DNA from: a virus
Virus record (IMG/VR): IMGVR_UViG_3300032278_002677
Span: 1 to 48,740 of that record
Strand: one strand, 5' to 3'
Length of the DNA: 48,740 bases
The notes under the pieces were generated by a model. That model did not search any database. It worked only from the letters and a program-made list of their open reading frames with translations, and was not told the origin of the DNA. Made by a program: the position numbers and the translations under genes. Below are positions 4,082-47,706 of this stretch, piece by piece. The number at the start of each line of letters is the position of its first letter. The stretch's first letter is position 1.

Positions 4082-5350
4082 CTACGACTTCCTGAATAGG
4101 ACCACGCGGTTCGTGTTCGTACCCTTCGTCCGGTTCGTGACGCCCCAGCAGTTGGATGTCTTGGTGAAATCCTGCTCATTGATGAGAACGAGCTGGGGGT
4201 CAAGTCCGGCGTCCATGCCGCACGGTAGGACGATCTCCTCCAAGCGCACCTTGCCTCCTCGCACTTCACCGACCTCGAACGCGACGTGGCCCCCAGGTCG
4301 GAGCACGCGCATCAACTCGACGAAGACCGATGACATGGCCGCCTGCCATCTCGAGATGTCTCCATGCATCGAGATCTGCACGCGCGCGACATCGATCCCG
4401 CAGAACCAGCACCTGAGCCAGTTATCCTGCGCGTAGTCGACTACGTCAAGGAATGGGGGAGAGGTCACGACGAGGTCGACGGTTCCCGAGGGGATCGTGT
4501 CCGTCGACGCGGCGTCTGTGGTGAGGAGGAGACGTTCCCGCGAGGCATGAGCGAGCTTCCGGCGCGTCGCGTCGTCGCAGGCTCGGAGGAGGGACGTAGT
4601 CTTCCGGAGGATGAGGTCGAGGGCGTCGCGACGAGGAGGCGTCTGGTTCCGGCGCGCGTTGATGTTCCGCTGGGACTTGACGGATACGGCCTGGTTGGGC
4701 GGAAGTGTGTAAACGGAGAAGAAGCCAGGGGAATGCCCAGTCAGTCGGTTTATCGCGACCATCCGGACCCACCGGTCTATCGCGTCCGAGAGGCCGTCCT
4801 TCTCGCGTCGGAGAAGGTATCGCCTCAGCGCGGATATCTCGGCGAGGGTGTCGGGATGGTAGAAAACGAGCAGATCCTCGGGGGCATCGTCAACGTCCGC
4901 GAAGTCGATTTCATCCAGCCGTGAGGCGGTTTGGTCGAACGTGGGTGGGTCTAGGCGGGGCTCGACCAGTACCTGGCTGAGCGGATTGACGTCGCATCCG
5001 ATGGGCGTCCGGCCGAGGAGCGCCGCCTCGAGCAGTGTCGTTCCTCGTCCCATGAAGGGGTCGTAGACCACGTCGCCCACCCCAGTCAGCCGTTCGATGA
5101 AGAAGCGCGGGAGCTGAGGCTTGAAGCAGGCTCGGTAGGAGAGCTCGTGCAGGCTGTGCGCGGCACGTTGCTTGGAGGTCCAGAACTCGTTCACGTAGGT
5201 AGATGTGGGGGCGAGGCCGTCAACGGACGTCTCCGTGACCAGGGTCTCTGTGCCGAACTCCTGAAAGGCTGAGAGTTCGGTATGGAGCTCGTCGGCGTTC
5301 CGCCGTGCAGCCGGGGCTCCCGTTTGGAATAGCTCTAGCTGTTCGTCCAA
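4082..5350 (-). CDS. DNA methyltransferase of a type II restriction-modification pair
   Basis: 422 aa with a TTG 5350 start. Motif I DPFMGRGTTLLEAALLG lies near residue 95-110 and motif IV TSPPF near residue 290-300, followed by a RVLRPGGHVAFEVGEV segment. Motif I before motif IV distinguishes it from the beta-class enzyme at the window ends. TSPPF is typical of N4-cytosine enzymes, so modification at cytosine N4 is the best guess; recognition sequence unknown. The gene starts 4 nt after the putative endonuclease gene, a usual RM layout. Base composition looks less GC-extreme than neighbouring phage genes, which suggests transfer as a cassette. Confidence 0.85.
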   Translation of the reverse strand: MDEQLELFQTGAPAARRNADELHTELSAFQEFGTETLVTETSVDGLAPTSTYVNEFWTSKQRAAHSLHELSYRACFKPQLPRFFIERLTGVGDVVYDPFMGRGTTLLEAALLGRTPIGCDVNPLSQVLVEPRLDPPTFDQTASRLDEIDFADVDDAPEDLLVFYHPDTLAEISALRRYLLRREKDGLSDAIDRWVRMVAINRLTGHSPGFFSVYTLPPNQAVSVKSQRNINARRNQTPPRRDALDLILRKTTSLLRACDDATRRKLAHASRERLLLTTDAASTDTIPSGTVDLVVTSPPFLDVVDYAQDNWLRCWFCGIDVARVQISMHGDISRWQAAMSSVFVELMRVLRPGGHVAFEVGEVRGGKVRLEEIVLPCGMDAGLDPQLVLINEQDFTKTSNCWGVTNRTKGTNTNRVVLFRKS

Positions 5351-11886: not shown

Positions 11887-13107
11887 ATGGGCACCCCCGA
11901 TCCTCCGACACTCGAACCGGACGAAGCCGCGGCACTCGCTGACGAGATGGCCGCAGGTGCGCCCGGCTCCGATGATGAGTTCGCTGCGATCGACCAGATG
12001 GACAGCGAGCAGATCGACGCACACCTTGACGGCACCCACCCGCTGCTCGGCGCGCTGTTTTACCGGTTCACGATCAAGCGCGGGAAGTCCAAGGGCAAGG
12101 AAGTCGTGGGAATCAGCTGGGCCGCGGTGAACGCCGCCGCGCTCCACATGGGCCGCCACGGCAACGCGATCCACATGAGCGACCTGCGCGTGGAAGAAAC
12201 GGTCGATGACATGAGGGTCACCGTGCTGGCGACGTGCAAGGAAGGCAGCCGCTATGGCGGATTCAACGAGCCGCTGCTGGAGCCGGGCGACCCTAAGTCG
12301 AGCTTCACATTCCGGTACGCGCTGTCCAAGGCGCAGCGAAACGCGATCAAGCCCTTGATCCCGATGGAGCTGCTGGTGCAGCTGTATGCGGCCTGGAAGG
12401 CATCGCAGCAGCGCCCCGCGCGGGAGATTACCGTGCAGGACGACCGCACCGCGGTGGCGGACTCACCCGGCCAGATGGGCACTGGCAGAGAGCCGCCCGT
12501 GGCGCAGCGGGCAGCCTTCACCCTCTGGTCCACGGTGGCGAAGCGCATGGGTGACGCGGCGCCGACCGCGGACGAGTGGGCCGCGTACCTCCATGACAAG
12601 TACGGGGTGGAGTCGCGCACCGAGATGAGCGCCGAGCAGTGGACGGACCTGCGGAACTCGCTTGAACACGCGAAGTTGGCGACCGACGGTGCCCTGTTGA
12701 AGCTGGCAGCCCGGATCAAGCAAGGGAGCTTCGACCTGCCCGGCGACGGCTTCGGGATCGTGGACGCTGAGGCGGTGTGTTGGTTGACCCCCGCGGGTGT
12801 CCTGCACTACTCCGGCGGGCTCAACGGTGGCTTGGCAGACCAGGCCGCCTACCTGCGCGAGATGAGCCGGTACAACGCCAGCCGCAACGCAAACTTTGAC
12901 GGCGCGCTGGATGCGCGTGCCGGCGAGGTGCTACCTAACTCGCCGGACGCTCCCGCGATGCTAAAGTTGATCGCTGACCCCTCGAAGCGCGTCCACGCCC
13001 ATGCGCTGCTCCTGTTGGTGCCGGAGGAGTGGGCCAGCGCCTATGGCGACAGCGCTGCGGACGTGATCCGCACCTACCTGCCCGCCAACGGGAGGGCGAC
13101 CGCATGA
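11887..13107 (+). CDS. Putative single-strand annealing recombination protein
   Basis: 406 aa from ATG 11887. Residues about 55-180 have the arrangement of Rad52/Erf-type phage annealing proteins: a helix ISWAAVNAAALHMGRHG, strands SDLRVEETVDDMRVTVLATC, then YALSKAQRNAIKPLIPMELL. The C-terminal half has no recognised fold. It is followed by the sliding clamp with an ATGA overlap, consistent with recombination-coupled replication. The assignment rests on pattern, not on a clear motif. Confidence 0.5.
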   Translation: MGTPDPPTLEPDEAAALADEMAAGAPGSDDEFAAIDQMDSEQIDAHLDGTHPLLGALFYRFTIKRGKSKGKEVVGISWAAVNAAALHMGRHGNAIHMSDLRVEETVDDMRVTVLATCKEGSRYGGFNEPLLEPGDPKSSFTFRYALSKAQRNAIKPLIPMELLVQLYAAWKASQQRPAREITVQDDRTAVADSPGQMGTGREPPVAQRAAFTLWSTVAKRMGDAAPTADEWAAYLHDKYGVESRTEMSAEQWTDLRNSLEHAKLATDGALLKLAARIKQGSFDLPGDGFGIVDAEAVCWLTPAGVLHYSGGLNGGLADQAAYLREMSRYNASRNANFDGALDARAGEVLPNSPDAPAMLKLIADPSKRVHAHALLLLVPEEWASAYGDSAADVIRTYLPANGRATA

Positions 13108-14462
13108 AGATACGTGTGGAACGCGATGCCCTCCGGGATGTAGTTGAGCGCTGCCAGCGCGCCATCCGCGGCGCGTCCTTCTTGCCCGCACTCGACCACC
13201 TGCACCTGGTGGCGGAAGATGAGCGCCTGACCGTCCACGCGACGGACCAAAGCCTGGCGATCGTGGCGCGGTGCGATGCCGATATCGAAGAGCCCGGCGA
13301 GCGCCTACTGCCGGCCAAACGCATGGCCGCGCTGCTGCGCGCGATGCCCGGCGACACCATCACGATGGCCCCCTACGGTGCCCATGGGACGCTGCTGCGA
13401 TGTGGTGGAGGCCGCTGGCACCTCAATGCCGTGCCGGTGGATGAATTCCCACCGATGCCCGAGATGGGCGACACCCCCTGGGAGGTGGACGGGCAGGCAC
13501 TTCTGCGAATGACCCGCATGGTCGAGTACGCCGCCAACGAGTCGTACGGGCAGTACTTCACTAGCGTGGTGATGATCCACCAGGACGCCGACGCGGTAGA
13601 CGTGGTGGCACTCGAAAGCCGCCGCATCGCCTGGGTGCGCCGCCCCTATGATGACGCGATGCCGTGCCCAGACACGCTCGGCGATATTCTCCTGCCGGTT
13701 GCGGATGTCAGGCTGCTCCCGGCGGTGTTCCAGGGTGCCACCCGGCTGCGCATCGACCGGCAGGACAATATGGTGGTGGTCGAAGATACAAGCGCCCTGC
13801 ACACCACCATGGGGATCAGGCAGGTGGATGGCGAATTCCCAACCTACGCGCAGCTGTACCCGGCCGACTCCCCGGTGATCCTGCACGTGGACGCGCAGGA
13901 ACTCCGGCAGGTGCTGCGCCGCGTGATGCTCTTCGCCAACCCCAAGACGGCGAGCGTGGTGCTGGTAGCGATGCCGGACTGCTTGAGTGTGGGCGCCGAC
14001 ACCGCCGACTTTGGGAAAGCAATCGAAACACTGCCGTGCGAGTACCAAGGCGATAAGCCCTACGTGTGCGGCCTCCGGGCCAGCTTCCTGATTGACATTA
14101 TAGCGGCACTGCCCCAGGGTAGCATCACCCTGCGGGCACCCCACCCACTCTACGCGCAGGAGATTGGACCGGTGGAGCCTCTGCCTGACAACCAGATCAC
14201 CCGGCACCTAGTCATGCCCGTACGGATCGAAGGCCCCGATGTGGCGCTCGCGCAGGAGCAGGCTGCTGCTGTGATGGGCGACGACATCAAGGCCACAATA
14301 CAGGAGATGGTCCAAGATGCCGAGCAAAACCACGCCGACCGACGGCACACCCAACGCGAAGCCGCCGAAGCCGAGCGCGAAGCCGAAGGCGAGCAGGACG
14401 CGCGCGAAGCCGACGCCGACGACGAAGCCAGCCCCGACAGCGAAGGCTACCCCGGCGAATGA
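13104..14462 (+). CDS. dnaN: DNA polymerase III beta sliding clamp
   Basis: 452 aa from ATG 13104, overlapping the previous stop (ATGA). The opening MKIRVERDALRDVVERCQRA and later blocks LHLVAEDERLTVHATDQSLA, RLRIDRQDNMVVVEDTSALH and GEFPTYAQLYP match the three repeated domains of bacterial beta clamps. The rest of the clamp ends near residue 390. A highly charged Glu/Asp/Arg tail of about 60 residues is not part of known clamps and is read over the start of the next gene. No DNA polymerase is seen in the window, so the clamp may recruit a host polymerase (inference). Confidence 0.9.
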   Translation: MKIRVERDALRDVVERCQRAIRGASFLPALDHLHLVAEDERLTVHATDQSLAIVARCDADIEEPGERLLPAKRMAALLRAMPGDTITMAPYGAHGTLLRCGGGRWHLNAVPVDEFPPMPEMGDTPWEVDGQALLRMTRMVEYAANESYGQYFTSVVMIHQDADAVDVVALESRRIAWVRRPYDDAMPCPDTLGDILLPVADVRLLPAVFQGATRLRIDRQDNMVVVEDTSALHTTMGIRQVDGEFPTYAQLYPADSPVILHVDAQELRQVLRRVMLFANPKTASVVLVAMPDCLSVGADTADFGKAIETLPCEYQGDKPYVCGLRASFLIDIIAALPQGSITLRAPHPLYAQEIGPVEPLPDNQITRHLVMPVRIEGPDVALAQEQAAAVMGDDIKATIQEMVQDAEQNHADRRHTQREAAEAEREAEGEQDAREADADDEASPDSEGYPGE

Positions 14463-14709
14463 CCCCGGCGCAGTGTTCGACGCGCTGGAACTCACCGACA
14501 CACTGGTATTGTGGCCGCACGGTGGCAAGCCCATCGAGGTGGCCATCCAGTGGATACGCGACGGGAACGTGCAGGCGTACGATTACGCGAACCGGGCGAC
14601 CTACACGATTGGGCGCCACGCGTTCGTGGATGGCAGATGTGAGGTGAGGGATACGGCCGCCAAGCGTCAGCCCACGGGGGGCCCCGATGGCGGCGGCGAT
14701 CAGGGATAG
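14317..14709 (+). CDS. Lysine/proline/alanine-rich protein overlapping the clamp gene
   Basis: 130 aa from ATG 14317 with AGGAG 10 nt upstream. The first 50 residues are a Lys/Pro/Thr/Ala low-complexity tail resembling histone-H1-like tails. They are encoded in a different frame within the last 146 nt of the clamp gene. Residues 50-110 are a small folded region (VFDALELTDTLVLWPHGGKP, then VQAYDYANRATYTIG). It ends tail-to-tail with the minus-strand methyltransferase (10-nt overlap). The basic tail might bind nucleic acid or the acidic clamp tail. Confidence 0.65.
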   Translation: MPSKTTPTDGTPNAKPPKPSAKPKASRTRAKPTPTTKPAPTAKATPANDPGAVFDALELTDTLVLWPHGGKPIEVAIQWIRDGNVQAYDYANRATYTIGRHAFVDGRCEVRDTAAKRQPTGGPDGGGDQG

Positions 14710-15296
14710 GGGTCAGTAGCGGGGTCACGCACAACCCCATACCAGGTACGCGTATCGTTCGGTGGCCGCTGATCGAAGAACCCGCCCGCGAAAACAGCCT
14801 GCCGGCGCTCGATCGCCGCCGCCGGCTCGCCACCCTCCCCGGCGTCGTGGGCGATCACCACCCCCCCGGGCGCCACCATGGGCACGTAGTGCCTAAAGTC
14901 ATTCTCCGGCACCCCGCCGCCGTGCTGGCCGTCGATGAACAGCACCCCCAGGGTCATGCCGGCCAGGTATCGCCACGCCTCCCTCGAACTCATAACGAGG
15001 TATCGTGGCACACCCCCCGCCTGCTGGATTTCTCCAACGCGGCCGCTAAACGCATCGCGGAACATCTGGTCGGACCCATCATCTATCCCCCACACCTCGT
15101 ATGGCAGCTTCTGCTCCTGCTCCAGCTCCCGTGCCAGCGTGTGATAGTGGGCCTGCCACGCGGCATGCCCGACACCGATCTCCAACATCCTGCGGGGCAG
15201 GCCGTTGCGGGCTGTGAGCCGCATCAGATCGCAGATTGCCGCCGGATACTCACTCGGTGGTGTAGCTGCCACGATCCCACGGACCGCCTCGATCAT
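14700..15296 (-). CDS. SAM-dependent methyltransferase, glycan-type
   Basis: 198 aa, start ATG 15296 by ATGA overlap with the glycosyltransferase. Residues about 38-46 MLEIGVGHA correspond to the SAM-binding motif I. FIDGQHGGGVPENDF followed by APGGVVIAHD matches the Methyltransf_24/CmcI-like class of sugar and natural-product methyltransferases. As the last gene of the heptose operon it probably methylates the finished sugar or its anchor. Confidence 0.75.
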   Translation of the reverse strand: MIEAVRGIVAATPPSEYPAAICDLMRLTARNGLPRRMLEIGVGHAAWQAHYHTLARELEQEQKLPYEVWGIDDGSDQMFRDAFSGRVGEIQQAGGVPRYLVMSSREAWRYLAGMTLGVLFIDGQHGGGVPENDFRHYVPMVAPGGVVIAHDAGEGGEPAAAIERRQAVFAGGFFDQRPPNDTRTWYGVVRDPATDPYP

Positions 15297-16387
15297 AGCC
15301 CCCCGACCCTCCCGTCTGGTTGCAGCGTCTTGCCGGCTGCCGCGAATATCTGCCCCACGACGCGCCGCGTGGCGCCCATCGTATACTGTTTAGATAACGC
15401 GTGTACCCGCCGCGACTCAACGTCCCATGAGATCGGGTCACTCAGCCACTGGGTGCCTAACTCCAGGGCGTCGTCCATGCACAGCGCACTCGACACGCCA
15501 ATGCCGAGGTCCTGCGATGACTGCGGCACGTCTGTGGCTATAATTGGCGTACCACACGCCGCTGCCTCGTAGTTGAATTGGCCGCGAACCTGGCTGCCGT
15601 CCAGATTGACCACCAATTTGCTGCGCGTCAGAGCAGCCGCTAGGTTGTGCCAATCGAACGGGAACGCCGGCATCAGCATCGTCTCGGTGAGGCCGAGCCG
15701 CGACAGCAGACGGTCCTCTCGGATGTCTATAAGGTTCTGGGGGTCCGCGCCAGCAGTGCACACGTGGAAGGTGTAATCAGGGAACCGGCGCACTAGTTCG
15801 GCAGCGACCAGGATTGAGTGTGCTGCGCCCTTGGAGGCGCGTTCTGGCGCCCCTCGGTGGTTGACTCGAACCGATATGAGGTCACGCTCCCCGTCTGGGT
15901 ATGGTTTGTCGTGCAGTTGGCGACAGAGTTCTGACGCGTCCCGCCAGCGGTACGCTGGCGTGGACGTGAGGCGCTTGCAGGTCTGGAGCATGTAGTCGTA
16001 GTGGCACAATAGCGCATCGTACTGGTCGAACATGTCAAAACACCAAAACATGAACTCCTGCTCGGCGTTCAAAAACGAGCCATGTATGTCGTCCAGCTGG
16101 ATAGTTGCAATGATTCCACGTCTGCGGCACTCGCGCCCTAGCGCGAGCATGTGCGCCCGGCATTCCACCGGGTGTGCTTCCCATGGGAGCAGCGTGATGA
16201 CGAAGTCGGGATGGTAGATGTCCAGCGCCTCGACGGCACCACGGGAGCCCGAAAACCCTGTCCGCTGCCCCGGGAACAGGCACGCGTTTATCTCGGTGTG
16301 GGTGCGCCGTGAGGGGTCATCTGCCGCCACGTCCCAATGGTTGTTGTCGAGGTCCGCCGGCAGAGGCCACACGTATAGCAGATTCAT
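15293..16387 (-). CDS. Glycosyltransferase, GT-B-like
   Basis: 364 aa from ATG 16387 (ATGA overlap with upstream gene). The C-terminal half has the nucleotide-sugar-binding pattern of GT-B enzymes: RSKLVVNLDGSQVRGQFNYE, then AACGTPIIATDVPQSSQDLG, with E and the G-T-P-I turn in usual places. The N-terminal half (PDFVITLLPWEAHPVECRAH) is the acceptor domain. No signal peptide. It probably adds a sugar after the heptosyltransferase has acted. Confidence 0.75.
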   Translation of the reverse strand: MNLLYVWPLPADLDNNHWDVAADDPSRRTHTEINACLFPGQRTGFSGSRGAVEALDIYHPDFVITLLPWEAHPVECRAHMLALGRECRRRGIIATIQLDDIHGSFLNAEQEFMFWCFDMFDQYDALLCHYDYMLQTCKRLTSTPAYRWRDASELCRQLHDKPYPDGERDLISVRVNHRGAPERASKGAAHSILVAAELVRRFPDYTFHVCTAGADPQNLIDIREDRLLSRLGLTETMLMPAFPFDWHNLAAALTRSKLVVNLDGSQVRGQFNYEAAACGTPIIATDVPQSSQDLGIGVSSALCMDDALELGTQWLSDPISWDVESRRVHALSKQYTMGATRRVVGQIFAAAGKTLQPDGRVGGL

Positions 16388-16866
16388 CTCGGCAGCCCCT
16401 TGATGCGCGCGATGATTGCGGTGGTGTGTTCTCGGTCGGGCCTGCCGTGCACAATGCACCTGCCGCCTATACGGGCCATGATGGCAGCCTCCGGGAACCG
16501 GCCGGGCGTGTACTCTCCTCCACGCACGTAGATGTCCGGCAGGACAGCCGCGATGGCCGCCTCCTTGCGGACGGCGCTATCCATGAGCACTACGTGATCG
16601 ACGCAGGCCAGCGCGTGGACAATAGCGACGCGGTCCCCCTCGGCGATGACGGGACGGCCGGGCCCTTTGCTGCGCCGGCACTCCGCGTCATCCCCCATGT
16701 CCACGATCAGGGTATCGCATAGCTCGGACGCTGCCTCCAGCAGGTCCAGGTGGCCCCGGTGGAGCAGGTCCCCGAAGGTCGCGGCCATCCCTATCCGCAG
16801 GCCCTGCTCGCGGGCTGCCGTCGCGTAGGTGGATATCCTACCAAGTTCTCGGCATCCGAATACCAT
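16384..16866 (-). CDS. HldE-like sugar-1-phosphate nucleotidyltransferase
   Basis: 160 aa from ATG 16866. Residues about 30-45 ATFGDLLHRGHLDLLE carry the HxGH nucleotide-binding motif of cytidylyltransferase-fold enzymes. KGPGRPVIAEGDRVAIVHAL matches the HldE C-terminal domain, which makes ADP-heptose from heptose-1-phosphate. The usual Cys-Phe-Asp before LLH is replaced by TFGD. It overlaps the kinase gene by 29 nt; in most bacteria the two activities are fused as HldE, so here they are split. Confidence 0.8.
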   Translation of the reverse strand: MVFGCRELGRISTYATAAREQGLRIGMAATFGDLLHRGHLDLLEAASELCDTLIVDMGDDAECRRSKGPGRPVIAEGDRVAIVHALACVDHVVLMDSAVRKEAAIAAVLPDIYVRGGEYTPGRFPEAAIMARIGGRCIVHGRPDREHTTAIIARIKGLPR

Positions 16867-17797
16867 AGGTGTCTTCCATGGCGTGGGCGAGGGTGTGCCC
16901 CATGTGCTGTGCGCGTGACATGAACAGGTCGAACCCGCACACAATCCCCGCGTACAGGTTGGCAAGCCGCACCGCGTCGCTCAACGACATGCTGCGGGCG
17001 ACAGACATGCTGAACGCCAGCCCCAGCGCATCCCCCGCACCGTTATGGGACACTACTTCCGCTGCCTCGGCCTTCAGATATTCGCGGCAGCCGTCAGGAT
17101 ACAGCACCACCAGACCATCGCGGCCCAGCCCAATGATGGCCACACGGACACCACCTCGGTGGAGCTCGGCCAACGCGGCCATCGCGTCCTCGTGGGTCAC
17201 GATAGTCCGTTGCAGCGTCGCCTCCGCCTCGGACCGATTCAAAAAAACGGAGTCAGCAGCGCGCAGCATGGGCGCCCATTCCCACGCGCGGTCTACCATC
17301 TGCCCATCGTCAGCAATCGCCTGGAAGTTGCGATGGGGGTCCACATGGACCCATGCCGTCGGGAAGTGGGCCTGCAATTCGCCGACTAGCGTTGGTGCGA
17401 CCGCGCCCACGTCGCCGCCGTTGACCAAAATGACCTCGATGCCCGTGCCGACGAACCGCCGCAGGTGGTCCATCGTGACAGGCACCGCGGGTCGGTTCGC
17501 ATACGCCGTGTCCGTCCCGTCCTGGTGGAATACTGCCCGGTGGTAGTTAGTCTCAGCAACCCCAACGATCCCGATTGAGTTGAACCGGATGCCATACCTG
17601 GACTGCATGGCCTCCGCCCACGGGCGCACTTCATCTCGGGCGAGCGTGCACACCGGCGTGAACTCGTCGCAGTCCAGGGCGAAGGGCGCCCACGCCGCCA
17701 TGGTGCCCTCAAGGCACCCGGCCCAACCGGCCTGCGTCGTGCCGCTTGCGACGACCAGCTCGCCCTGCACTACTGAGCCGACCATCAGCACCTGCAT
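16838..17797 (-). CDS. PfkB-family sugar kinase, HldE N-domain-like
   Basis: 319 aa from ATG 17797. The C-terminal signature SHNGAGDALGLAFSMSVA is the PfkB catalytic motif (GAGD with base Asp). VFLNRSEAEATL corresponds to the conserved N-x-x-E region. Its neighbour is an HldE-like nucleotidyltransferase, so phosphorylation of a heptose-7-phosphate or a similar sugar is the likely role. The isomerase GmhA and phosphatase GmhB are absent from the window and would come from the host. Confidence 0.75.
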   Translation of the reverse strand: MQVLMVGSVVQGELVVASGTTQAGWAGCLEGTMAAWAPFALDCDEFTPVCTLARDEVRPWAEAMQSRYGIRFNSIGIVGVAETNYHRAVFHQDGTDTAYANRPAVPVTMDHLRRFVGTGIEVILVNGGDVGAVAPTLVGELQAHFPTAWVHVDPHRNFQAIADDGQMVDRAWEWAPMLRAADSVFLNRSEAEATLQRTIVTHEDAMAALAELHRGGVRVAIIGLGRDGLVVLYPDGCREYLKAEAAEVVSHNGAGDALGLAFSMSVARSMSLSDAVRLANLYAGIVCGFDLFMSRAQHMGHTLAHAMEDTYGIRMPRTW

Positions 17798-17937
17798 CTA
17801 GCGCCTCCGCGTAACTCGCGCACGCAGGACCACACGGCGGGCGGCCCGTCGGCGGTGCCGGGCCAGCCGGCAAGCGTGGTGCCGTTCGGGGTGGTGAGTG
17901 CAGACTTATGGGCTGACGCTATCAGGAGCAGGTGCAT
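17785..17937 (-). CDS. Possible 50-aa coupled protein
   Basis: A 50-codon frame from ATG 17937 with GGAGGG 5 nt upstream, overlapping the end of the heptosyltransferase gene and the start of the kinase gene. It opens with MHLLLIASAHKS, then GWPGTADGPPAVWSCVRELR. It fills the only gap in an otherwise overlapping operon, which supports translation, at least for coupling. No family recognised. Confidence 0.45.
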   Translation of the reverse strand: MHLLLIASAHKSALTTPNGTTLAGWPGTADGPPAVWSCVRELRGGARCRC

Positions 17938-19309
17938 GCAGACCCTCCAGCATCGGTATTGCCTTGTCGATCACGTCCTGGGGTGTTAGCGACGTCAGGC
18001 ACACCCGCCCCCAGCCGTTCGGGCACGACTCCATCCACTCCGGCGCCTTCCAGAAGCAGGGCTCGCACGCCACACCACACACGGCCGCGTTGCCGGGCAG
18101 CCCGTACAGGCTCGGAGCGGTGGGCCCGTATATTACCACCGAGCGCGTGCCCATCATGTGCGCCAATCGGGCGGACCCGCCCTCGTTGCAGATGTGCAAG
18201 CTGCTCCGATGGAGCACCTGCGCCGCCCCGGGCAGCGTGGTCTCGCCCAACAGGCTTGTGCAGTATGGTATGGGCTCGTCGTCCAGGGTGCCCACCTGCA
18301 CGATGGTGAGCGTCGGGTACTGCTCCCGGATCGCACCCGCCACCCCGGCGAGCAGATCGTGCGGTAGCTCCTTGGTCTGTGGCTTTTGGCTGACGCTGCG
18401 GTCGCTGCCGTTGGACATCGTGATGTACGTCGGCGATAGCCCGACAACTGCCTCCGGTGTGTCCCACACCGCCCGCAGGTCTGACATCGTCACGTCGGGC
18501 AACCCCATGGTGAGCAGCCCCAGCTCATGCACCGATCGCGCATCGTGCTGCAACGCGTTCACCGATGCCTGTAGCGGGCTGTCGTAGACGCGGTTATACA
18601 GCGGGTCATCTAACTGGAAGAACACCCGGCCGCGCTGGTACACCTTGCCCACGTAGGGCCTCCAGTCGAAGAGCAACCCCCAGCGCTGCGCCTCCACGGC
18701 CACATCGTACTGCAGGCCGCCCGCCCACGGCAGCACGGCATCGAATATAGGACGCCCTCGGTGATGGAACGCCTGCGCGAACGTCGCCAGCGTGCCCATC
18801 CGGGGTTGCTCGATGTAGAGCGCAAACCATGCCGGCTCGACGTGCGCCCGGATGGCGGCCCCCATCTTGATCGCGTCGCACACGTCGCCCATCGCACCCA
18901 GGTGCAGCAGGCCCACACGGGCGCCCTTGGGCGCGTCGATTAGCGTCTTGGAGGTGTTGCGGGTCATCTCGGGTGCAGGATCGTCCGCGCCGCGGACCAC
19001 CGCCTCATGCTTCGCGGGGTCGCACCCCAAGCTGTGCAACAGCCGAACGTCCCCCAGGCCGGTGACCTGCGAGCGCGGCACCTCCGTGGACAACACCAGC
19101 GTGCCGCTCGCCAGGTCGAACACCGACACAGTGCAGGTCTCTGTGGATTCTTGACCGGGCCGCAGCAGCTCGCTGGTGGTGGGGTCTAATTTGAGCCGGC
19201 GCAGGAGTGCGTCGTCTGGTAGCCCGATGTCGCTGTACGGCACCGACACCTTGCGCATCTGACCGGTCTGCCGGTCTAGGACTCGGACCTGTACGCGGGA
19301 GTCATTCAT
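17906..19309 (-). CDS. GT9-family heptosyltransferase-like protein
   Basis: 467 aa from ATG 19309. Residues about 130-440 follow the ADP-heptose:LPS heptosyltransferase pattern: an N-terminal VGLLHLGAMGDVCDAIKMGA, then the C-terminal donor-site region ICNEGGSARLAHMMGT, SVVIYGPTAPSLYG and CEPCFW. About 120 extra N-terminal residues (RQTGQMRKVSVPYSDIGLPD and onward) are not part of the family and may bind an acceptor. It heads the operon with the kinase and nucleotidyltransferase. The acceptor could be host lipopolysaccharide or a virion protein; the sequence does not decide. Confidence 0.8.
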   Translation of the reverse strand: MNDSRVQVRVLDRQTGQMRKVSVPYSDIGLPDDALLRRLKLDPTTSELLRPGQESTETCTVSVFDLASGTLVLSTEVPRSQVTGLGDVRLLHSLGCDPAKHEAVVRGADDPAPEMTRNTSKTLIDAPKGARVGLLHLGAMGDVCDAIKMGAAIRAHVEPAWFALYIEQPRMGTLATFAQAFHHRGRPIFDAVLPWAGGLQYDVAVEAQRWGLLFDWRPYVGKVYQRGRVFFQLDDPLYNRVYDSPLQASVNALQHDARSVHELGLLTMGLPDVTMSDLRAVWDTPEAVVGLSPTYITMSNGSDRSVSQKPQTKELPHDLLAGVAGAIREQYPTLTIVQVGTLDDEPIPYCTSLLGETTLPGAAQVLHRSSLHICNEGGSARLAHMMGTRSVVIYGPTAPSLYGLPGNAAVCGVACEPCFWKAPEWMESCPNGWGRVCLTSLTPQDVIDKAIPMLEGLHAPAPDSVSP

Positions 19310-19574
19310 GGTCACGGTGTGGACCGTGTGTATTGGCAATTATGCCTTTGATGTAGTTCAGGTCCTCTGTAATTTTGTTCAGCTCCTGAATCGAGCGGTC
19401 ATGACGTCTATCGCGCATCTCGTCGGACCTATTCCAGCGGTCGATCAACTTGATTACTATATCCTCAATCTCTTTTAGCTTGCCCATCATCGTGGTACGC
19501 AGGAACGAGATCATCCCAACAAACAGTAGTGCGATTATCCCGACCGCTCCGTATTCCGCGTAGGATTCCACCAC
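19302..19574 (-). CDS. Small membrane protein, holin-like, copy 1
   Basis: 90 aa with a GTG start. One N-terminal membrane helix (GAVGIIALLFVGMISFL) is followed by a charged coiled coil (KLKEIEDIVIKLIDRW, then RSIQELNKITEDLNYIKG). This layout resembles BhlA/UviB-type holin-like peptides. A near-identical copy lies at 19881-20150. Base composition is lower in GC than the flanking genes. It overlaps the heptosyltransferase start by 8 nt. Confidence 0.65.
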   Translation of the reverse strand: MVESYAEYGAVGIIALLFVGMISFLRTTMMGKLKEIEDIVIKLIDRWNRSDEMRDRRHDRSIQELNKITEDLNYIKGIIANTHGPHRDHE

Positions 19575-19584
19575 TGCCCGCCAA
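19353..19584. repeat. Direct repeat, copy 1 (about 232 bp)
   Basis: Nearly identical to 19932-20163 with only a few substitutions; it covers most of the holin-like gene and its ribosome site. The spacing is 579 bp. The high identity points to a recent duplication or gene conversion. Confidence 0.9.
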
Positions 19585-19616
19585 CTTCCCCGCCCTATAC
19601 AGAGGAGTAGACAAGA

Positions 19617-19880: not shown

Positions 19881-20150
19881 TTACTCTCGCCTCCCACGAT
19901 TATCATTTGTATTGGAAATTCTTCCTTTTAAGTAGTTCAGGTCCTCTGTAATTTTGTTCAGCTCCTGAATCGAGTGGTCATGACGTCTATCGCGCATCTC
20001 GTCGGACCTATTCCAGCGGTCGATCAACTTGATTACTATATCCTCAATCTCTTTTAGCTTGCTCATCATCGTGGTACGCAGGAACGAGATCATCCCAACA
20101 AACAGTAGTGCGATTATCCCGACCGCTCCGTATTCCGCGTAGGATTCCAT
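19881..20150 (-). CDS. Small membrane protein, holin-like, copy 2
   Basis: 89 aa from ATG 20150 (the equivalent codon in copy 1 is GTG). Same N-terminal membrane helix and coiled coil as copy 1; the C-terminus differs (KGRISNTNDNRGRRE). A pair of nearly equal small membrane proteins recalls holin/antiholin pairs, but both have the same topology. Weak family evidence. Confidence 0.65.
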   Translation of the reverse strand: MESYAEYGAVGIIALLFVGMISFLRTTMMSKLKEIEDIVIKLIDRWNRSDEMRDRRHDHSIQELNKITEDLNYLKGRISNTNDNRGRRE

Positions 20151-20163
20151 CACTGCCCGCCAA
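19932..20163. repeat. Direct repeat, copy 2 (about 232 bp)
   Basis: Partner of 19353-19584, same orientation. Confidence 0.9.
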
Positions 20164-20236
20164 CCACTAGTCACTACTTAGACGACCCCTACTTCTCGCA
20201 TCGGCGCCTCATCTTCATAGAGACTCGCTTCCCCGT

Positions 20237-22201
20237 CTAGGTATAGAGCTGGGCTGCCCGTTGGATTCGGCCACTCGCGTGCCACGCGATGAACGCCTTG
20301 TAGTCGTTGGTGCCGCCGACCTGCTGATAGTGGATTGTAATAGACCGCTCGCCCCGTGTCACATTAACCACCTCGATCTGCGTAGCACTCCCGTGCGCGC
20401 TGTAGAATGTGCCCGCCGTGGTGTCCTCCACCTCCGCAACCCACGCGGACGCCACGATGGGCCGGAAATCGAGCGGCACCGTCACGGTGTGGACCGACTG
20501 ATCGGTCTGTTCCGGCGTCCACAGGGTGTCCATCTCGGTGTGCTCGATGCTGCGGCCGACCGCCCCGCGCAGGTCGTTGATCGACCTCGCGAGCTTGCGC
20601 AGGAACCGCTTGGGCTTCGTCTCCAAATTCAGCTCGACCGACACACCGGTGGAGGTCTCAAGGCGCCGCTCGCCCAGCACCCGGAACGTCTCATCGACCA
20701 GCACACCATCATGGTCGAGTGTGTCACCGGACACGATGCGCACCAGATCGCCCGGCTCGAACGTCCACGTGTCGTCGGGCGTGCGCACCACCCGCACGGT
20801 CATCCTGATGCCGGGGTCCTTGTGGCTCGCCAGGTACTCGGCCGCACGGTCGTTCAGCTCATCGACGGTATCCTCGTGGAACTGCACCACCTTCTGCCGC
20901 ACCCCGTAGGCGGTCTGCGAGGCGGCATCTTGCAGCACCACCTCGATGGCGTTCAGCCCGCCACCGGTCCCCTGGGCGATCACGTAGTTGGCCAGCTCCG
21001 AATCGTCCGCGCTGTATTCGGTGATTTCGGCGTGGTGTCCTTCTATGAGGTTGTATGGTCCGGCGGCCACGTGGTCGGTGCCCCACACGGTGCCCACCGC
21101 GCCCGCCGCCGGCACCGCTTGCACGTCCAGCACCCCGGCAGTGCTAACCCGCCACTCCAGCTCATAGGTCTCGCACAGCCGATCGAGCGCGCTGATGAGC
21201 GCCTGGCCACCGACCGTCAGGTTGTCCTCGATGTCCGTGCTGGGGAACGTGCCGACCGTGATACCCGTAACGGCACGCTGCCCAAGGAACTCGAACCACG
21301 TCACCACCGGAGTCAAGTCGTTCGGGTTGATCGCGTCCATGGCGAACTCGACCGCCACGTAGCGCCGCCCCACGGGCAACAAGGCACTGATGTCCTCCCC
21401 GATACCCTCCGGCTGCGATGGGGTCTGCTGCCCACCCGAGAATGCGCGCGAGCCGCCCTTGGCTGCGAACTCACCCACGCGGAAGGTCAGCTCGGTTGAC
21501 TGCCAGCCACCCCCGATGCGTAACCGATCCCACACGGTCAGCGCGCTGCCGAAGTCCAGCACGGGCGATTCATACACCCCGGCGACGTTGTCCCAGGGTG
21601 GTATGTAATCGGACCCGCTCGCGGTGCCGTTGAGGGTCAGGATGCCGCCGGCTTCGTCCACGTCGCCGGACTCGATCCGATCCCACAACACCAGGTTGTC
21701 GCGCCCACCCGTCTGGTCAATAAGCAGGTAGTCGTCTGTGTCACCACTGCCGGTGTCGCCGGTGAATGACTGGACTTCATCGCCGTCCCAGGTGATGGCC
21801 GCGGGCAGCACTGCCGTGACGCGCCGCCAATGGTGCGACCGCACGAACGAGCTCTTGTTGTCAGCCAGGGCGCCGCTCAGCATGTACTCGGGCGGGAAGA
21901 TGACGTGCCGCAGACGGGCCGACAAACCGACACAGTTCACCACCACCCACCCGGCGGTGCTGATGTTCAACGGGCCGGCCACGACCCCAGCGGCGAGCAC
22001 CGCATCATCGACGGTGTCGTGGACGCGCACCACCGATCCGAGCGTCAGGTTGGCAATATCGGGGTCGTCACGCGGAAGCGCAAAGGTGATGGACTCCGTG
22101 CCGTTCATCGTCCGCGTGAACCCCACCCCGGTGGCGTTCGCAACGTCGCCGGTCTTCGTTGCGTTCGCCGCATTGTACCGCTCGATGATGAGGCGGGCCA
22201 T
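20237..22201 (-). CDS. Tail hub / endopeptidase-type tail protein
   Basis: 654 aa; ATG 22201 overlaps the stop of the distal tail gene (TAATG). The N-terminal part (RTMNGTESITFALPRDDPDI, GSVVRVHD) and the region around residues 430-520 (NDRAAEYLASHKDPGIRMTV, FEPGDLVRIV) are characteristic of siphophage hub/Tal proteins. A central insertion (residues about 150-300) is strand-rich and Gly/Asp-rich and may be a carbohydrate-binding domain. It forms the tip below the distal tail protein and contacts the host surface. Confidence 0.75.
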   Translation of the reverse strand: MARLIIERYNAANATKTGDVANATGVGFTRTMNGTESITFALPRDDPDIANLTLGSVVRVHDTVDDAVLAAGVVAGPLNISTAGWVVVNCVGLSARLRHVIFPPEYMLSGALADNKSSFVRSHHWRRVTAVLPAAITWDGDEVQSFTGDTGSGDTDDYLLIDQTGGRDNLVLWDRIESGDVDEAGGILTLNGTASGSDYIPPWDNVAGVYESPVLDFGSALTVWDRLRIGGGWQSTELTFRVGEFAAKGGSRAFSGGQQTPSQPEGIGEDISALLPVGRRYVAVEFAMDAINPNDLTPVVTWFEFLGQRAVTGITVGTFPSTDIEDNLTVGGQALISALDRLCETYELEWRVSTAGVLDVQAVPAAGAVGTVWGTDHVAAGPYNLIEGHHAEITEYSADDSELANYVIAQGTGGGLNAIEVVLQDAASQTAYGVRQKVVQFHEDTVDELNDRAAEYLASHKDPGIRMTVRVVRTPDDTWTFEPGDLVRIVSGDTLDHDGVLVDETFRVLGERRLETSTGVSVELNLETKPKRFLRKLARSINDLRGAVGRSIEHTEMDTLWTPEQTDQSVHTVTVPLDFRPIVASAWVAEVEDTTAGTFYSAHGSATQIEVVNVTRGERSITIHYQQVGGTNDYKAFIAWHASGRIQRAAQLYT

Positions 22202-23502
22202 TAGGCATACTCATCCCGGTGCTCTACCGTGACGGCGAGCGAGCCAGTGTCTGGTGCGTGCACGTATAGATGATTCAGTCCAGGCAGCAGATCGAACAAC
22301 ACTCCGTTACAGTTGTCACCATCCTCGACCCACGTGCCCCCCTCGTGCCGCCGGTAGCGCCCCAGCTTGGCGTCGATGAGCCAGTCGGTCTCGTTGCCGG
22401 CGGTGTCCAGGTCGCTCGATCGGGTGATGCTTCGATGCTTGTAGCGCGGCAGGCTCGTGTTGACGAACTGCGTAGCGGCCGATCCCTTCTCCATCTGCGC
22501 GTCGTCGAGGTCAATGGCGCCGTTGTTGGTATTGCAGAAGAACTGCACCCGGCAGTACGCACAATCCGCCGGCATCGTGAACGACGCAGAGAATCGGGTC
22601 CACGTCGGGAGCGTGATGCTGGTGTTGGATTGCTCCGTGGACGTTGGCCCGCACGCTAGGCCGGCGACGGTCCAATAGTAGACCCGGGTGCGTAAGTCGT
22701 TGGTCCCGCTGTCCGTTCTGGCGTAGACGCTGACTGTGTACTCAGTGCTGGCGTCCACGGCCATCGAGGTGGTACTACTCACACCGAACTGCAACCAGTT
22801 ATAGGTACCACCGCTGCGACTGATCTTGATACTGCGACTCCCTGATCGCCCGAAGTGCTGGTTGATACCCGGGGTGGCATTCTTCGTCCACCCGGTCGGG
22901 AAGTCGGCGCCGTCCTCCAGGGACGAGTTCGGGAATAGGTTGCGCCCCCGCCATTCAACCTCGGGATTGTTCCAGTCGGTGCCGCCGCTGTTGAGCTCCA
23001 CGTGAATTCTAGGCCAGCACGCCGCGCTCCCCGCGTAGGTCACGTTGACGTACCGCACCGGCGTCGCGCTCCCATCGTTGGTGATGGTCGCCGCGGTGGT
23101 GTTGGGCGCCCCGTCGGGGTCATCCACCCATATGCCGTCCGTGACCAGCAGCCCCAGGGTTACGTCGTATATATTTGGCGGTGCTGTGGTCCGAGACACG
23201 GACTCCACCTGGACCTCGCACCATCTATCCGTGTTGCTGTTCTCTAGCACCAGCGTGCCGCTGTGCAGGAGTTCCGCCATGGCGTCCCACAGGGTGTTCA
23301 GGTTCGCCCCGCTGGTGCCGACGATTAGCCCCTGGAGCGTCAGCTGCTGCGGCCCGGCGGTTTGACCACGCGCCTGCACGACCGCGCCGCGCCGCCCCAC
23401 GATCCCACCACGCGGCCCGAGGTCCCGGCCCTGCCTCACCTGCCGGCACGTCCAGTTCGTCAGCGTGGCGGAATTACCAGCGCCGCGGAGCACCAGCGCC
23501 AT
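22201..23502 (-). CDS. Distal tail protein with an inserted carbohydrate-binding-like domain
   Basis: 433 aa, TGATG overlap with the tape measure stop. Residues 1-170 and about 370-433 look like the two halves of a Dit protein (N-terminal ring domain, LTLQGLIVGTSGANLNTLWD; C-terminal GLNHLYVHAPDTGSLAVTVE). Between them lies an insertion: GRNLFPNSSLEDGADFPTGW, then a beta-sandwich ending DDAQMEKGSAATQFV, a typical CBM-like jelly-roll. Dit proteins with such insertions help bind host glycans. Confidence 0.75.
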   Translation of the reverse strand: MALVLRGAGNSATLTNWTCRQVRQGRDLGPRGGIVGRRGAVVQARGQTAGPQQLTLQGLIVGTSGANLNTLWDAMAELLHSGTLVLENSNTDRWCEVQVESVSRTTAPPNIYDVTLGLLVTDGIWVDDPDGAPNTTAATITNDGSATPVRYVNVTYAGSAACWPRIHVELNSGGTDWNNPEVEWRGRNLFPNSSLEDGADFPTGWTKNATPGINQHFGRSGSRSIKISRSGGTYNWLQFGVSSTTSMAVDASTEYTVSVYARTDSGTNDLRTRVYYWTVAGLACGPTSTEQSNTSITLPTWTRFSASFTMPADCAYCRVQFFCNTNNGAIDLDDAQMEKGSAATQFVNTSLPRYKHRSITRSSDLDTAGNETDWLIDAKLGRYRRHEGGTWVEDGDNCNGVLFDLLPGLNHLYVHAPDTGSLAVTVEHRDEYA

Positions 23503-39552: not shown

Positions 39553-40030
39553 CGTCGTCTTCCTCACCGTCACCCATCGGGTCTGGTGGTATCGGGAACT
39601 GCGCCGCGTCGGTCAGCAACGTCTCGACCGTCACCCGCATGCCTGGTGGCGCATCCCCCGGGTCGATCAGCACCTGTGCGCCGCGGCCTTCCAGGACCGC
39701 CAGCAAGCGCGCCGCCGCCGCCACCTGCACCCGTTCATTGCGGCTGCGCAGCTTATTCCGAAGCGTCACCCACACCTCTGGCCACGTCTGCCGCCGAAGC
39801 TCTGCCTTGGCGTCATCCCAATGGGCCACATACTCGGGGTCTCGCTTGTACTCCCAGCGCTCGATAGACTTCGCCGAACACCCCGCCAGCAAGGCGGCCT
39901 TCCTGCGCGACATACCACTCACGCGCGCCACCGCCGCCTTGTACTTCTTAGGGCCGAACAGGATCGGGTCCGGCCCGTCCTGTTCGGCGTTACCCTTGGG
40001 CTGCTGCTTAGGTGCAGGCTTCTTTGCCAT
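39488..40030 (-). CDS. terS: Terminase small subunit
   Basis: 180 aa from ATG 40030 (TGATG overlap). Helix-turn-helix region RRKAALLAGCSAKSIERWEY, followed by a helical oligomerisation region, fits small terminases. Its last 65 nt overlap the large subunit start. Confidence 0.75.
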   Translation of the reverse strand: MAKKPAPKQQPKGNAEQDGPDPILFGPKKYKAAVARVSGMSRRKAALLAGCSAKSIERWEYKRDPEYVAHWDDAKAELRRQTWPEVWVTLRNKLRSRNERVQVAAAARLLAVLEGRGAQVLIDPGDAPPGMRVTVETLLTDAAQFPIPPDPMGDGEEDDDGDAGEADIRDNAGPAGGLGL

Positions 40031-40839
40031 CACACACCCCTAGTCGCCCCACCGGAGGGCGGACGTTGGAGCGGCCGGGTCGGATTTGAACCGCCTTCAT
40101 CCCCGCAGGACGCGGGTGCATCACCACCAATGCTTCGGCCGCGGTACATTCGCGCGTTCAGCTTGTCGATCGTGTCGAACGGCAGCACCGGAACGGTGAG
40201 CCGTTCACGGCATGCCGGGTCAAGGAAATACAGATAGCGGAACTGGTAGCCCTTCACCACCTCGCCACCCAGGAGGCGGGCTACGCCCGGAATGCCCAGC
40301 GCCTTGCCGTGGCTCCGCGCCCGGATATACTTGCGGAGCGCGACCCGCTGCACGCATGCCATCTGGTGCGCCACAGCGCGGCCGCCGTTCAGGTGCCGCA
40401 GGTGTTCAGGCAGCCGCACCATGTTGCCGGTCGAATACCCGGTGAGCACGAACCCCGAGGCCCGATAGATCGTGCCGTCACCACACTGCGCCCCATCGGC
40501 GAACGTCACCACCCAGCCCACGTGCGGTGCATGCTTGCGCAGCAGCCGCATGGCCACCGATATGGCGCGGCTCTCCGAGTTCCTTGGGAGCGCGTCCGAG
40601 AACGCGAGCCGGTTCAACTCCACAAACCCGTTCCACGGCGTTCCCTCCACCAGCCCCACCAGCTTGTTCTTGGACATCGGCGGCCCAAACTGCATCGCGC
40701 CCTCAAGGCTGCCGTTGTAGAACACCCCGATGCTGGTCTGCGAGTTCTGCACCACGGTGCCGCTGTAGTGGATTCGCTTCACCACTGCGTCCGCCTCGGC
40801 GCGCCCTATGGGCCGCAGCACGATGTCTTTAGCCGACAC
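40030..40839 (-). CDS. Mom-like DNA modification protein
   Basis: 269 aa from GTG 40839 (MSAKDIVLRP when read as start). GNAT-like Mom fold: SIGVFYNGSLEGAMQFGPPM, NGFVELNRLAFSDALPRNSE, AISVAMRLLRKHAPHVGWVV, FADGAQCGDGTIYRASGFVL. Mu Mom converts adenine to a carbamoylmethyl derivative that blocks restriction. Mu Mom is 231 aa; this protein has a C-terminal Gly/Pro/Asp-rich extension of about 37 residues that is read through a tRNA-like sequence (40067-40142). Lies next to a ParB-like gene. Confidence 0.85.
   Translation of the reverse strand: MSAKDIVLRPIGRAEADAVVKRIHYSGTVVQNSQTSIGVFYNGSLEGAMQFGPPMSKNKLVGLVEGTPWNGFVELNRLAFSDALPRNSESRAISVAMRLLRKHAPHVGWVVTFADGAQCGDGTIYRASGFVLTGYSTGNMVRLPEHLRHLNGGRAVAHQMACVQRVALRKYIRARSHGKALGIPGVARLLGGEVVKGYQFRYLYFLDPACRERLTVPVLPFDTIDKLNARMYRGRSIGGDAPASCGDEGGSNPTRPLQRPPSGGATRGV
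40067..40142 (-). tRNA. tRNA-like sequence (best fit Gly-TCC), atypical
   Basis: The minus strand folds as a 76-nt tRNA with encoded CCA (40069-40067): perfect 7-bp acceptor stem GCGGCCG/CGGCCGC, U73, D-stem GCAT/ATGC and T-loop GGTTCAAATCC. G1-C72, C2-G71 and U73 match glycine identity. Odd points: U8, A14 and A21 are not conserved, the T-stem has a bulged A, and the anticodon loop lacks U33 if TCC is the anticodon (CCT with U33 is possible but has stem mismatches). Decayed or special tRNA. Confidence 0.5.
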
Positions 40840-41494
40840 GGTTGTAGGTCTCCGTGATACGCGCCAGTGCGTTGCCGTTGCTGTTCTCGTTGCCGGTGTC
40901 CACGAACGGCCCTTCGTCTTGGGCCTTCTTGATTGCCGCCGCCACACCCAGCTGCTGCTCCGGTGACAGCGTGAACGTCATCACCCGCATGCCCGGCTGC
41001 GCACCGTCCGGCAGCCCCATCCCGTCATCCCACCCCTCGTCGCCCGGCACCGTCTGCGCGGCCCGCAGGTCGGCCAGCTCGTCGTCGCCGAACCCGGTGC
41101 CATACAGGTCTGGCAAGTCATCCAGCTGCACCAGCAGCACCTCGGCGTCGAAGCCGCTCTTGTCGGTGAGCCGGTTATTCGCTATGGCGTAGCGCTGCGC
41201 CGCCTGCAAGTCCCCAAACTCCTGCTCGACAACCGGCACCACGTCCATCCCAAGCACTTCCGCGGCAGCGCGCCACCTGCCCTCCCCGGCCACGATCTCG
41301 TGCGGCTCCGGCAGCCGCTCCCCTAGCTGCGTGGCCCACACCTCGATGGGGTCGCGGAAGCCGTTGACCCGGATGCTCTCCGCGATCCCATCAAGGTCGT
41401 GGCCCGTGCGGGCGTTCCACGGTGCCGCAATGATTGACCCACAATGCCGCACAACAGCCACCGGGGTGGCTTCTACCGCCGCCTCATTGGCCAT
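40829..41494 (-). CDS. ParB/Spo0J-like nuclease-domain protein
   Basis: 221 aa from ATG 41494 (SD GGAGG). N-terminal ParB-like domain: PWNARTGHDLDGIAESIRVN (partly conserved), GFRDPIEVWATQ, IVAGEGRWRAAAEVLGMD, AIANNRLTDKSGFDAEVL. C-terminal region unassigned. ParB-domain proteins adjacent to phage DNA-modification genes recur in phages with modified DNA; the role is not settled. Confidence 0.8.
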   Translation of the reverse strand: MANEAAVEATPVAVVRHCGSIIAAPWNARTGHDLDGIAESIRVNGFRDPIEVWATQLGERLPEPHEIVAGEGRWRAAAEVLGMDVVPVVEQEFGDLQAAQRYAIANNRLTDKSGFDAEVLLVQLDDLPDLYGTGFGDDELADLRAAQTVPGDEGWDDGMGLPDGAQPGMRVMTFTLSPEQQLGVAAAIKKAQDEGPFVDTGNENSNGNALARITETYNRVG

Positions 41495-43969: not shown

Positions 43970-44452
43970 CTATCCCAGTTGCCCCTGCTCGCGCAGGGTT
44001 GCCCCCAGGGCGATCGCCGCCGCCAGGGCATCATACCTGTGAGACTCCCACGTGGTAGGGACGTCTAGCAGGCCCACGACCTCCGCACGGACACGGTCCT
44101 TCTTTGCATTTCCGGGCGCGCCGACCGCCTTCTTTATCGCGCTGGGCGTATAATCCACCACCAGCAGCCCTTGCCGCGTCAGCCCGATCACCATCGCGCC
44201 GTAGGCCTTTCCGACCTTGACGGCAGATGTGATCACCCGCGGGCTGACGAACATATCCTCAATCGCCACCGCCTCCACGTGGAACCTGCCCTTCAGCGTG
44301 CCCACCTCGTATGCCAGGTCCGCCAGTTTGTCGTGCAGGTGCGCCCCATAGCCGGTGTGGCCGCCGCCTGCAATGTAGCGGTCGCCATCGGGCAGCGCCT
44401 CGATGACCCCCCAGCCGATGGTCAGCCCCGGGTCGATCCCTAAGAGTTTCAC
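43970..44452 (-). CDS. ruvC: RuvC-family Holliday-junction resolvase
   Basis: 160 aa. GIDPG with D7, VAIEDM with E65, and SHRYDALAAAI with H138 and D141 occupy the RuvC catalytic positions. Probably resolves recombination junctions before packaging. Start ATG 44452 overlaps the sigma gene end (ATGA). Confidence 0.88.
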   Translation of the reverse strand: MKLLGIDPGLTIGWGVIEALPDGDRYIAGGGHTGYGAHLHDKLADLAYEVGTLKGRFHVEAVAIEDMFVSPRVITSAVKVGKAYGAMVIGLTRQGLLVVDYTPSAIKKAVGAPGNAKKDRVRAEVVGLLDVPTTWESHRYDALAAAIALGATLREQGQLG

Positions 44453-45045
44453 CTGCGCCCCTCCAGTAGCAACCTGCGCGCCACCCCGAGCCGGTATTGC
44501 AGTGCCGGCACGGTCACGTGCAGCCGCGCGGCCAGCTCGGCAAGCGTGTCAGTCGGGTGATCGCCGCGCGCCTCCATGGCCTCGATGATCGACCCGCGCC
44601 CCTCGTGGTGCAGCTGCTCCCTCGCCTTAGTAACGCAACGCACCGCCCTCGACAGCACCGCCACACCGCCCGAGGGTACCGCGGTGCCGTCCAGCCAGTG
44701 CGACAAGTCGCGCAGGGTCCGGTCATACGTTCGCCGCCGTCGTACCCTGTCGGTACGCTTCGCCCGCAGGATCAGGAACGCCCACCTGCGGAACCCACCG
44801 GGCCGACGCTGCTCGAACGCCGGCAGCCGCTCCCACATCGTCAGCAGTGCATCCTGCACCGCATCCTCCAAGTCGGGCCCCACGGCCCCGCCGGCAGCAC
44901 CCCACAGGAGCATCAGCCCACGGTACCGCATGAACAGTACCGCAGCCGCGGACTCGTCGCCTCCCTGCACCGCCATGACCAGCTGCGTATCGTCATCATC
45001 ATGGGCAGCACCTGCTGGGGTCTCCACGGCGGTGCCGCCAATCAC
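44449..45045 (-). CDS. ECF-type sigma factor
   Basis: 198 aa. Region 2: QGGDESAAAVLFMRYRGLML followed by DLEDAVQDALLTMWERLPAF and WAFLILRAKRTDRVRR. Region 4-like helix-turn-helix: TDTLAELAARLHVTVPALQY followed by RLGVARR. A phage-encoded alternative sigma factor; likely controls middle or late genes. Confidence 0.8.
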   Translation of the reverse strand: MIGGTAVETPAGAAHDDDDTQLVMAVQGGDESAAAVLFMRYRGLMLLWGAAGGAVGPDLEDAVQDALLTMWERLPAFEQRRPGGFRRWAFLILRAKRTDRVRRRRTYDRTLRDLSHWLDGTAVPSGGVAVLSRAVRCVTKAREQLHHEGRGSIIEAMEARGDHPTDTLAELAARLHVTVPALQYRLGVARRLLLEGRR

Positions 45046-47533: not shown

Positions 47534-47706
47534 CACCCCGTCCCCTTCTGCATGGCGATCGCCACCCGGTGTGGCAGTAACAGCTTATCCTTGGGCTTGG
47601 CGTTCTCTGGCGACTTCCGGTTCCGGCCTTCGTACTTGATCCCGCCCGTGTGCTTCTTTCCGTACTGTGTGCCGGAACCACCCGATGCCGGTGCACTACC
47701 CGCCAT
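47533..47706 (-). pseudogene. Methyltransferase remnant, N-proximal part
   Basis: 57 aa: MAGSAPASGGSGTQYGKKHT onward to KPKDKLLLPHRVAIAMQKGT. It aligns with the intact enzyme from ASGGAGSQYGVKHRRG to PHRAAIALQ. The first codons come from the sigma-type start inside the 70-bp repeat. It ends exactly where the thermonuclease begins. Confidence 0.8.

Follow-up and report, generated by a model that had tools for sequence, protein, structure and literature searches.

The window analysed here is the whole of IMG/VR virus record IMGVR_UViG_3300032278_002677, a single tailed-phage sequence of 48,740 bases in which a Mu-like protease, portal, terminase, capsid protein E, tape measure and tail proteins were recognised. 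Downstream of the tape measure and tail genes, and then of a block of small genes (two of them copies of each other), five genes on the minus strand encode a GT9-like glycosyltransferase, a PfkB-superfamily sugar kinase, a nucleotidyltransferase, a GT4-like glycosyltransferase and a methyltransferase (Table 1). A preliminary description of this DNA had located five such genes at the end of the tail region, read in one direction, and all five open reading frames (ORFs) were recovered at the same positions. That all five overlap was correct for three junctions only: the kinase and nucleotidyltransferase genes share 29 nt, and the nucleotidyltransferase/GT4 and GT4/methyltransferase junctions are 4-nt ATGA overlaps, whereas 108 nt separate the GT9 and kinase genes. 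The GT9 gene also overlaps an upstream holin-like gene by 8 nt. Pfam matches above cut-off in the module were PF01075, PF00294, PF01467 and PF13578.

We put a probability of about 0.6 on the reading that these genes form a glycan module that is expressed late, has a split and diverged HldE (RfaE; heptose 7-phosphate kinase/heptose 1-phosphate adenylyltransferase) at its core and acts on heptose or a similar sugar. The core of this reading, an HldE-type pair together with a GT9 enzyme, stands as judged from sequence comparison.

Table 1. Predicted genes and repeats of the module and its upstream junction
Feature	Positions	Strand	Length and basis
GT9-like glycosyltransferase	17906-19309	minus	467 amino acids; PF01075, alphaproteobacterial relatives, Foldseek, repeat test
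PfkB-superfamily sugar kinase, HldE-related catalytic half and diverged sugar-binding half	16838-17797	minus	319 amino acids; PF00294, genome matches, tree, model
Nucleotidyltransferase, HldE C-terminal domain/HldC kind	16384-16866	minus	160 amino acids; TIGR02199, PDB 5x9q, alignment
GT4-like (GT-B) glycosyltransferase	15293-16387	minus	364 amino acids; PF00534 sub-threshold
Class I S-adenosylmethionine (SAM) methyltransferase	14700-15296	minus	198 amino acids; PF13578 above cut-off
Possible 50-codon ORF, unverified, would bridge GT9 and kinase	17785-17937	minus	read from sequence
Tail protein, upstream of the small genes preceding the module	20237-22201	minus	phrog_1887 tail protein, 1e-4
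257-nt duplication, first copy	19908-20164	minus	
257-nt duplication, second copy, with its end about 20 nt from the GT9 ATG	19329-19585	minus	

The HldE-related pair

Both halves of HldE, or of the split pair HldA and HldC, are present in the window as best matches, albeit encoded by separate genes that overlap, the kinase gene leading. The best NCBIfam match of the nucleotidyltransferase was TIGR02199 (rfaE domain II) at 111.8 bits (2.3e-32; profile positions 4-143 of 144), a score below the curated cut-off of 181.5 bits, followed by HldE at 92.2 bits, with all other models at 39.1 bits or less. The nearest solved structure was PDB 5x9q (2e-20), deposited as a 'putative cytidylyltransferase', and HldE proteins of Acetobacterales matched with up to 88.9 bits and approximately 41% identity. 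The HxGH (as HRGH) and KG..RP (as KGPGRP) motifs of HldE are retained, as is R79. The nucleotidyltransferase is accordingly predicted to belong with the HldE C-terminal domain/HldC, in agreement with its earlier description as one half of HldE.

PF00294 was recognised in the kinase at 4e-19 over residues 165-287, and both Pfam and NCBIfam detect the C-terminal half only; the GAGD catalytic/anion-hole motif of HldE (G253-D256) is kept. In 29 of the 30 top Acetobacterales genomes the best kinase match was the same ORF that the nucleotidyltransferase matches, and in the remaining genome it was another HldA-type kinase. A maximum-likelihood tree of the C-terminal half, restricted to the columns present in the window protein and contrasted with 17 further PfkB kinases from Acetobacterales, joined the window kinase to the HldE proteins of bacteria and phages (95/93), although the placement is weaker than these values suggest because the kinase branch is long (2.3). 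An initial tree with higher values (99/99) was set aside, its alignment having included HldE-only columns, and the trimmed tree was used instead. As indicated by whole-genome searches and the tree, HldE kinases rather than ribokinases are its closest relatives, and the kinase likely descends from HldE. The pair as a whole did not group with ribokinases or with unrelated cytidylyltransferases.

Several observations, the long kinase branch included, weigh against the reading of a heptose module. In NCBIfam the kinase scored slightly higher with ribokinase (50.2 bits) than with rfaE domain I (rfaE_dom_I; 40.3 bits), and it lacks the HldA sugar-site motifs GD..D, RISPEAPVP, GGxxN and SDY.KG, having S8, G12, C28 and NG at residues 127-128 at these sites and a deletion of the RISPEAPVP segment. 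The nucleotidyltransferase has ATFGD in place of NG(C)FD ahead of HxGH, and its STT and GGDY motifs are altered. Elsewhere in the module, the GT9 protein has an Arg, peculiar to the window, where its bacterial relatives have His381, and no transporter or acceptor gene of the record could be tied to the module. The earlier identification of the kinase as an HldE half is therefore upheld by genome searches and phylogeny but not by its sugar site or its NCBIfam ranking, and the statement that the pair makes ADP-heptose was too strong, as this can be inferred only from ancestry, given the loss of the HldA-type sugar site in one protein and of NG(C)FD in the other.

These losses can be interpreted as an HldE-derived pair that changed substrate while the kinase sugar-binding half and the NG(C)FD loop were remodelled, such that a different sugar is activated and transferred. 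Nearly all HldA sugar-site motifs are gone, NG(C)FD is retained in 88 of 94 viral relatives of the nucleotidyltransferase, and a degenerate pattern search for TFGDLLHxGH matched no other IMG/VR contig. The AlphaFold model of the kinase has a PfkB fold (predicted template modelling score, pTM, 0.75), and Foldseek ranked pseudouridine kinase (PsuK), ribokinase, myo-inositol kinase and HldA close together, the first three at or above HldA. This ranking is weak evidence because the N-terminal half of the model is poor (predicted local distance difference test, pLDDT, 32-57 at residues 11-100), and the GT9 protein and nucleotidyltransferase both still indicate heptose families. We consider a change of sugar rather unlikely. 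The diverged kinase and nucleotidyltransferase nevertheless offer natural variants for studying the sugar choice of HldE-type enzymes.

No match to Epimerase, SIS_2 or GmhB was found in the record, and the GmhA and GmhB reported missing by the preliminary description are indeed absent, as is an HldD-type epimerase. Under the heptose reading, heptose phosphate or a similar sugar phosphate would be taken from the host, since the phage has no GmhA or GmhB. The PfkB kinase would phosphorylate this sugar and the nucleotidyltransferase would then make the nucleotide sugar. Because the record encodes no HldD, this product would stay in the unepimerised D,D form except where host HldD acts on it. In the cytoplasm an acceptor would then receive the sugar from the GT9 enzyme; the GT4-like protein may add a second sugar, and the methyltransferase may then methylate the product. 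Should this scheme hold, nucleotide heptose would be made by a small phage out of sugar phosphate supplied by its host and used to modify a target on the virion or the envelope.

The two enzymes proposed for these last steps carry names that reflect Pfam-level similarity only. The second glycosyltransferase matched PF00534 at 1.5e-4 with 21.8 bits, below the threshold of 26.4, and had no relative among GenBank phages, the PDB or 150 Acetobacterales genomes, while the methyltransferase matched PF13578 at 1.1e-8.

The GT9 protein and candidate acceptors

PF01075 was detected in the GT9 protein at 5e-7 (29.7 bits against a gathering score of 22), over residues 350-411 only. The protein has GAMGD, TK and NEGG...GPT motifs and a Cys4 cluster spaced C-x2-C-x10-C-x7-C. 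A scan of one genome per species from 84,980 species identified 15 loci, mostly in Acetobacterales, Rhodospirillales and Rhizobiales, and members of this subfamily in Acetobacterales/Rhodospirillales and Rhizobiales were 32-38% identical to the window protein over the C-terminal part, in comparison to 19-27% over the full length. The closer loci have NEGG, TK, C-x2-C-x10-C and CWW...WM..C in common with the window protein, and the GD motif is kept too. HldE was encoded within 10 kb of the GT9 relative at four loci, and 11 of 12 genomes with GT9 relatives carry HldE above its curated cut-off. One match, on an Agrobacterium pusense plasmid (33% identity, E 2e-12), belongs to a gene cluster that also encodes HldE, HldD, a GmhB-like domain and another GT9 protein. 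The GT9 protein is thus assigned to an alphaproteobacterial subfamily found near HldE.

Comparison with the lipopolysaccharide (LPS) heptosyltransferases WaaC and WaaF revealed matches to the GT9 C-terminal domain and the GT-B fold in common, albeit with weak sequence similarity. At the residues that we take to correspond to the WaaC donor-site and catalytic residues, D142 and K313 are kept, and the Asp-Thr-Gly of the donor site is Glu-Gly-Gly in the window, followed by the Arg noted above in place of His; the D-to-E change is common to the bacterial subfamily. The proposed heptosyltransferase function is consistent with PF01075 and with a subfamily found near HldE, but is qualified by the Glu-Gly-Gly and Arg substitutions.

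The preliminary description had further remarked on about 120 N-terminal residues outside the family. This segment is real, is absent from WaaC/WaaF and from the alphaproteobacterial subfamily, and consists of two repeats of approximately 48 amino acids, whose alignment score of 45 compared with a shuffled mean of 19 and was reached in none of 5000 shuffles and in 1 of 500 in a split-half control.

The best Foldseek matches of the GT9 model were 3tov (a Veillonella GT9), WaaF, TibC and WaaC. The presence of TibC among the best solved structures, together with the extra N-terminal domain and the Cys cluster, could indicate a protein heptosyltransferase of the TibC/AAH (BAHT) type acting on a phage tail protein, and the use of ADP-D,D-heptose by TibC, not of the L,D form, would be compatible with the missing HldD (PMC4358343). 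However, Foldseek scores WaaF as high as TibC, and confidence in the GT9 model is low (pTM 0.58). At the sequence level the matches included WaaC and WaaF and not TibC, no TibC/AAH model matched in NCBIfam at E values up to 1, and no autotransporter partner accompanies the gene. The Cys4 cluster was dropped as a TibC-type mark for want of specificity, since other phage GT9 proteins have such clusters as well and the cysteines are spaced differently in the four-cysteine iron finger of TibC (C339, C342, C358, C370). An enzyme of this type is unlikely. A related proposal, that the split HldE makes D,D-heptose or a related nucleotide sugar and that the GT9 enzyme, guided by its N-terminal repeats, modifies the phage's own tail proteins, appears similarly improbable in this specific form.

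Returning to the heptose module in its broader form, our tentative first choice of acceptor is a virion (tail) protein; the host LPS core is a possible acceptor and comes second in order, and something else third. Virion glycosylation has been reported for mycobacteriophages (Freeman 2023, as cited in PMC12691614). The alternative purpose, a change of host LPS or surface glycan during infection that would block superinfection or keep progeny off debris, agrees with the GT9 family being that of LPS heptosyltransferases, and this interpretation has been published for phages whose rfaE and glycosyltransferase genes adjoin those for tail fibres (PMC7029224). In contrast, no flippase or membrane glycosyltransferase was seen adjoining the module, and its site behind the tail genes would suggest late expression, when a surface change would be less useful. 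We find this purpose somewhat doubtful.

Elsewhere the phage encodes a Mom-like DNA modification protein and two DNA methyltransferases (40030-40947, 4082-5350 and 47696-48703). Their presence could suggest that the glycosyltransferases modify phage DNA bases, but these genes lie at least 9 kb off in other gene blocks, and no base-hydroxylating enzyme was identified in a search covering part of the genes only. To our knowledge GT9 is no known DNA glycosyltransferase family, and modification of DNA bases is considered very improbable.

Heptose genes in other phages

Heptose genes of phages are already known. Pelagimyophages have rfaE among lipopolysaccharide genes, usually in a host-recognition cluster (PMC7029224), and published examples also include a cyanophage with kinase, GmhA and HldD (PMC7378029). 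Heptosyltransferase I is encoded by a huge phage (PMC10747093), and HldE together with glycosyltransferases by a cave phage (PMC11671562). What these phages share with the window is a gene for a kinase, a nucleotidyltransferase or a heptosyltransferase, in some cases next to tail-fibre genes. Cyanophage P-TIM68 encodes a separate carbohydrate kinase, nucleotidyltransferase and phosphoheptose isomerase.

A search with an alignment of five nucleotidyltransferases detected relatives in at least 496 IMG/VR contigs, a count unaffected by one of the five being doubtful as phage. Among 50 of these records that were examined, PfkB matches occurred in 43, GT9 matches in 21 and terminase matches in 25, the last indicating that many of them do come from phages. 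Very large phages are represented by two contigs, 242 and 293 kb long, which encode GT9, HldD, nucleotidyltransferase and a split kinase consecutively. The viral relatives examined mostly have canonical motifs and some have HldD or GmhA, in contrast to the window, whose module is a diverged version with several conserved substrate-site motifs changed. Carriage of both kinase and nucleotidyltransferase is common among phages, and this frequency, together with the published heptose genes, makes the phage setting less surprising. If the proposed pathway is true, the target and purpose of the heptose genes of many phage contigs become directly testable.

Many phage contigs also encode a compact fused kinase-nucleotidyltransferase of approximately 385 amino acids, shorter than bacterial HldE. 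The doubtful member of the five-sequence alignment, MT838225.1 (GenBank 'Bacteriophage sp.'), was excluded as an example of a phage that has HldE and HldD; over 4.3 kb spanning a glycosyltransferase, HldE and HldD it is collinear with an Agrobacterium plasmid at 82% DNA identity and may be bacterial DNA.

Surroundings of the module

The 257-nt duplication at the upstream junction, whose copies are 97% identical, contains most of the holin-like gene twice with an 86-amino-acid ORF in between. Such near-identity in a repeat ending so close to the GT9 start indicates that this junction was rearranged recently, as read from the sequence. The duplication is compatible with insertion of the module but is no proof of it. 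Recent foreign acquisition gained no support from codon usage, which in the module resembles that of other phage genes (rank 0.44 among random sets), making the module unlike a recent foreign arrival.

Single-protein scans of IMG/VR with the nucleotidyltransferase, GT9, kinase and TerL recovered no close relative, megablast of the first 25 kb against GenBank phages gave no match, and neither did tblastn of the kinase, GT9 and GT4 proteins against the same phages; as no near relative was found among GenBank phages or in IMG/VR, the comparison had no sister phage to draw on. A search for the host through TerL in Acetobacterales genomes gave no assignment, as 7 of 150 genomes matched, at 33-34% identity and no closer than other phages. 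No RNA families or tRNAs were found in the window, and scans for consensus promoters and terminators gave results near shuffled expectation and were not used.

Other genes of the record include two sigma-70-like proteins (44449-45045 and 46073-46954) and a nucleoside deoxyribosyltransferase-like gene (45042-46016). A carbohydrate-binding module (CBM_4_9) is present in a tail-region protein (22201-23502), and a homologue of DNA polymerase III beta (sliding clamp), encoded on the plus strand at 13107-14462, adjoins the end of the module.

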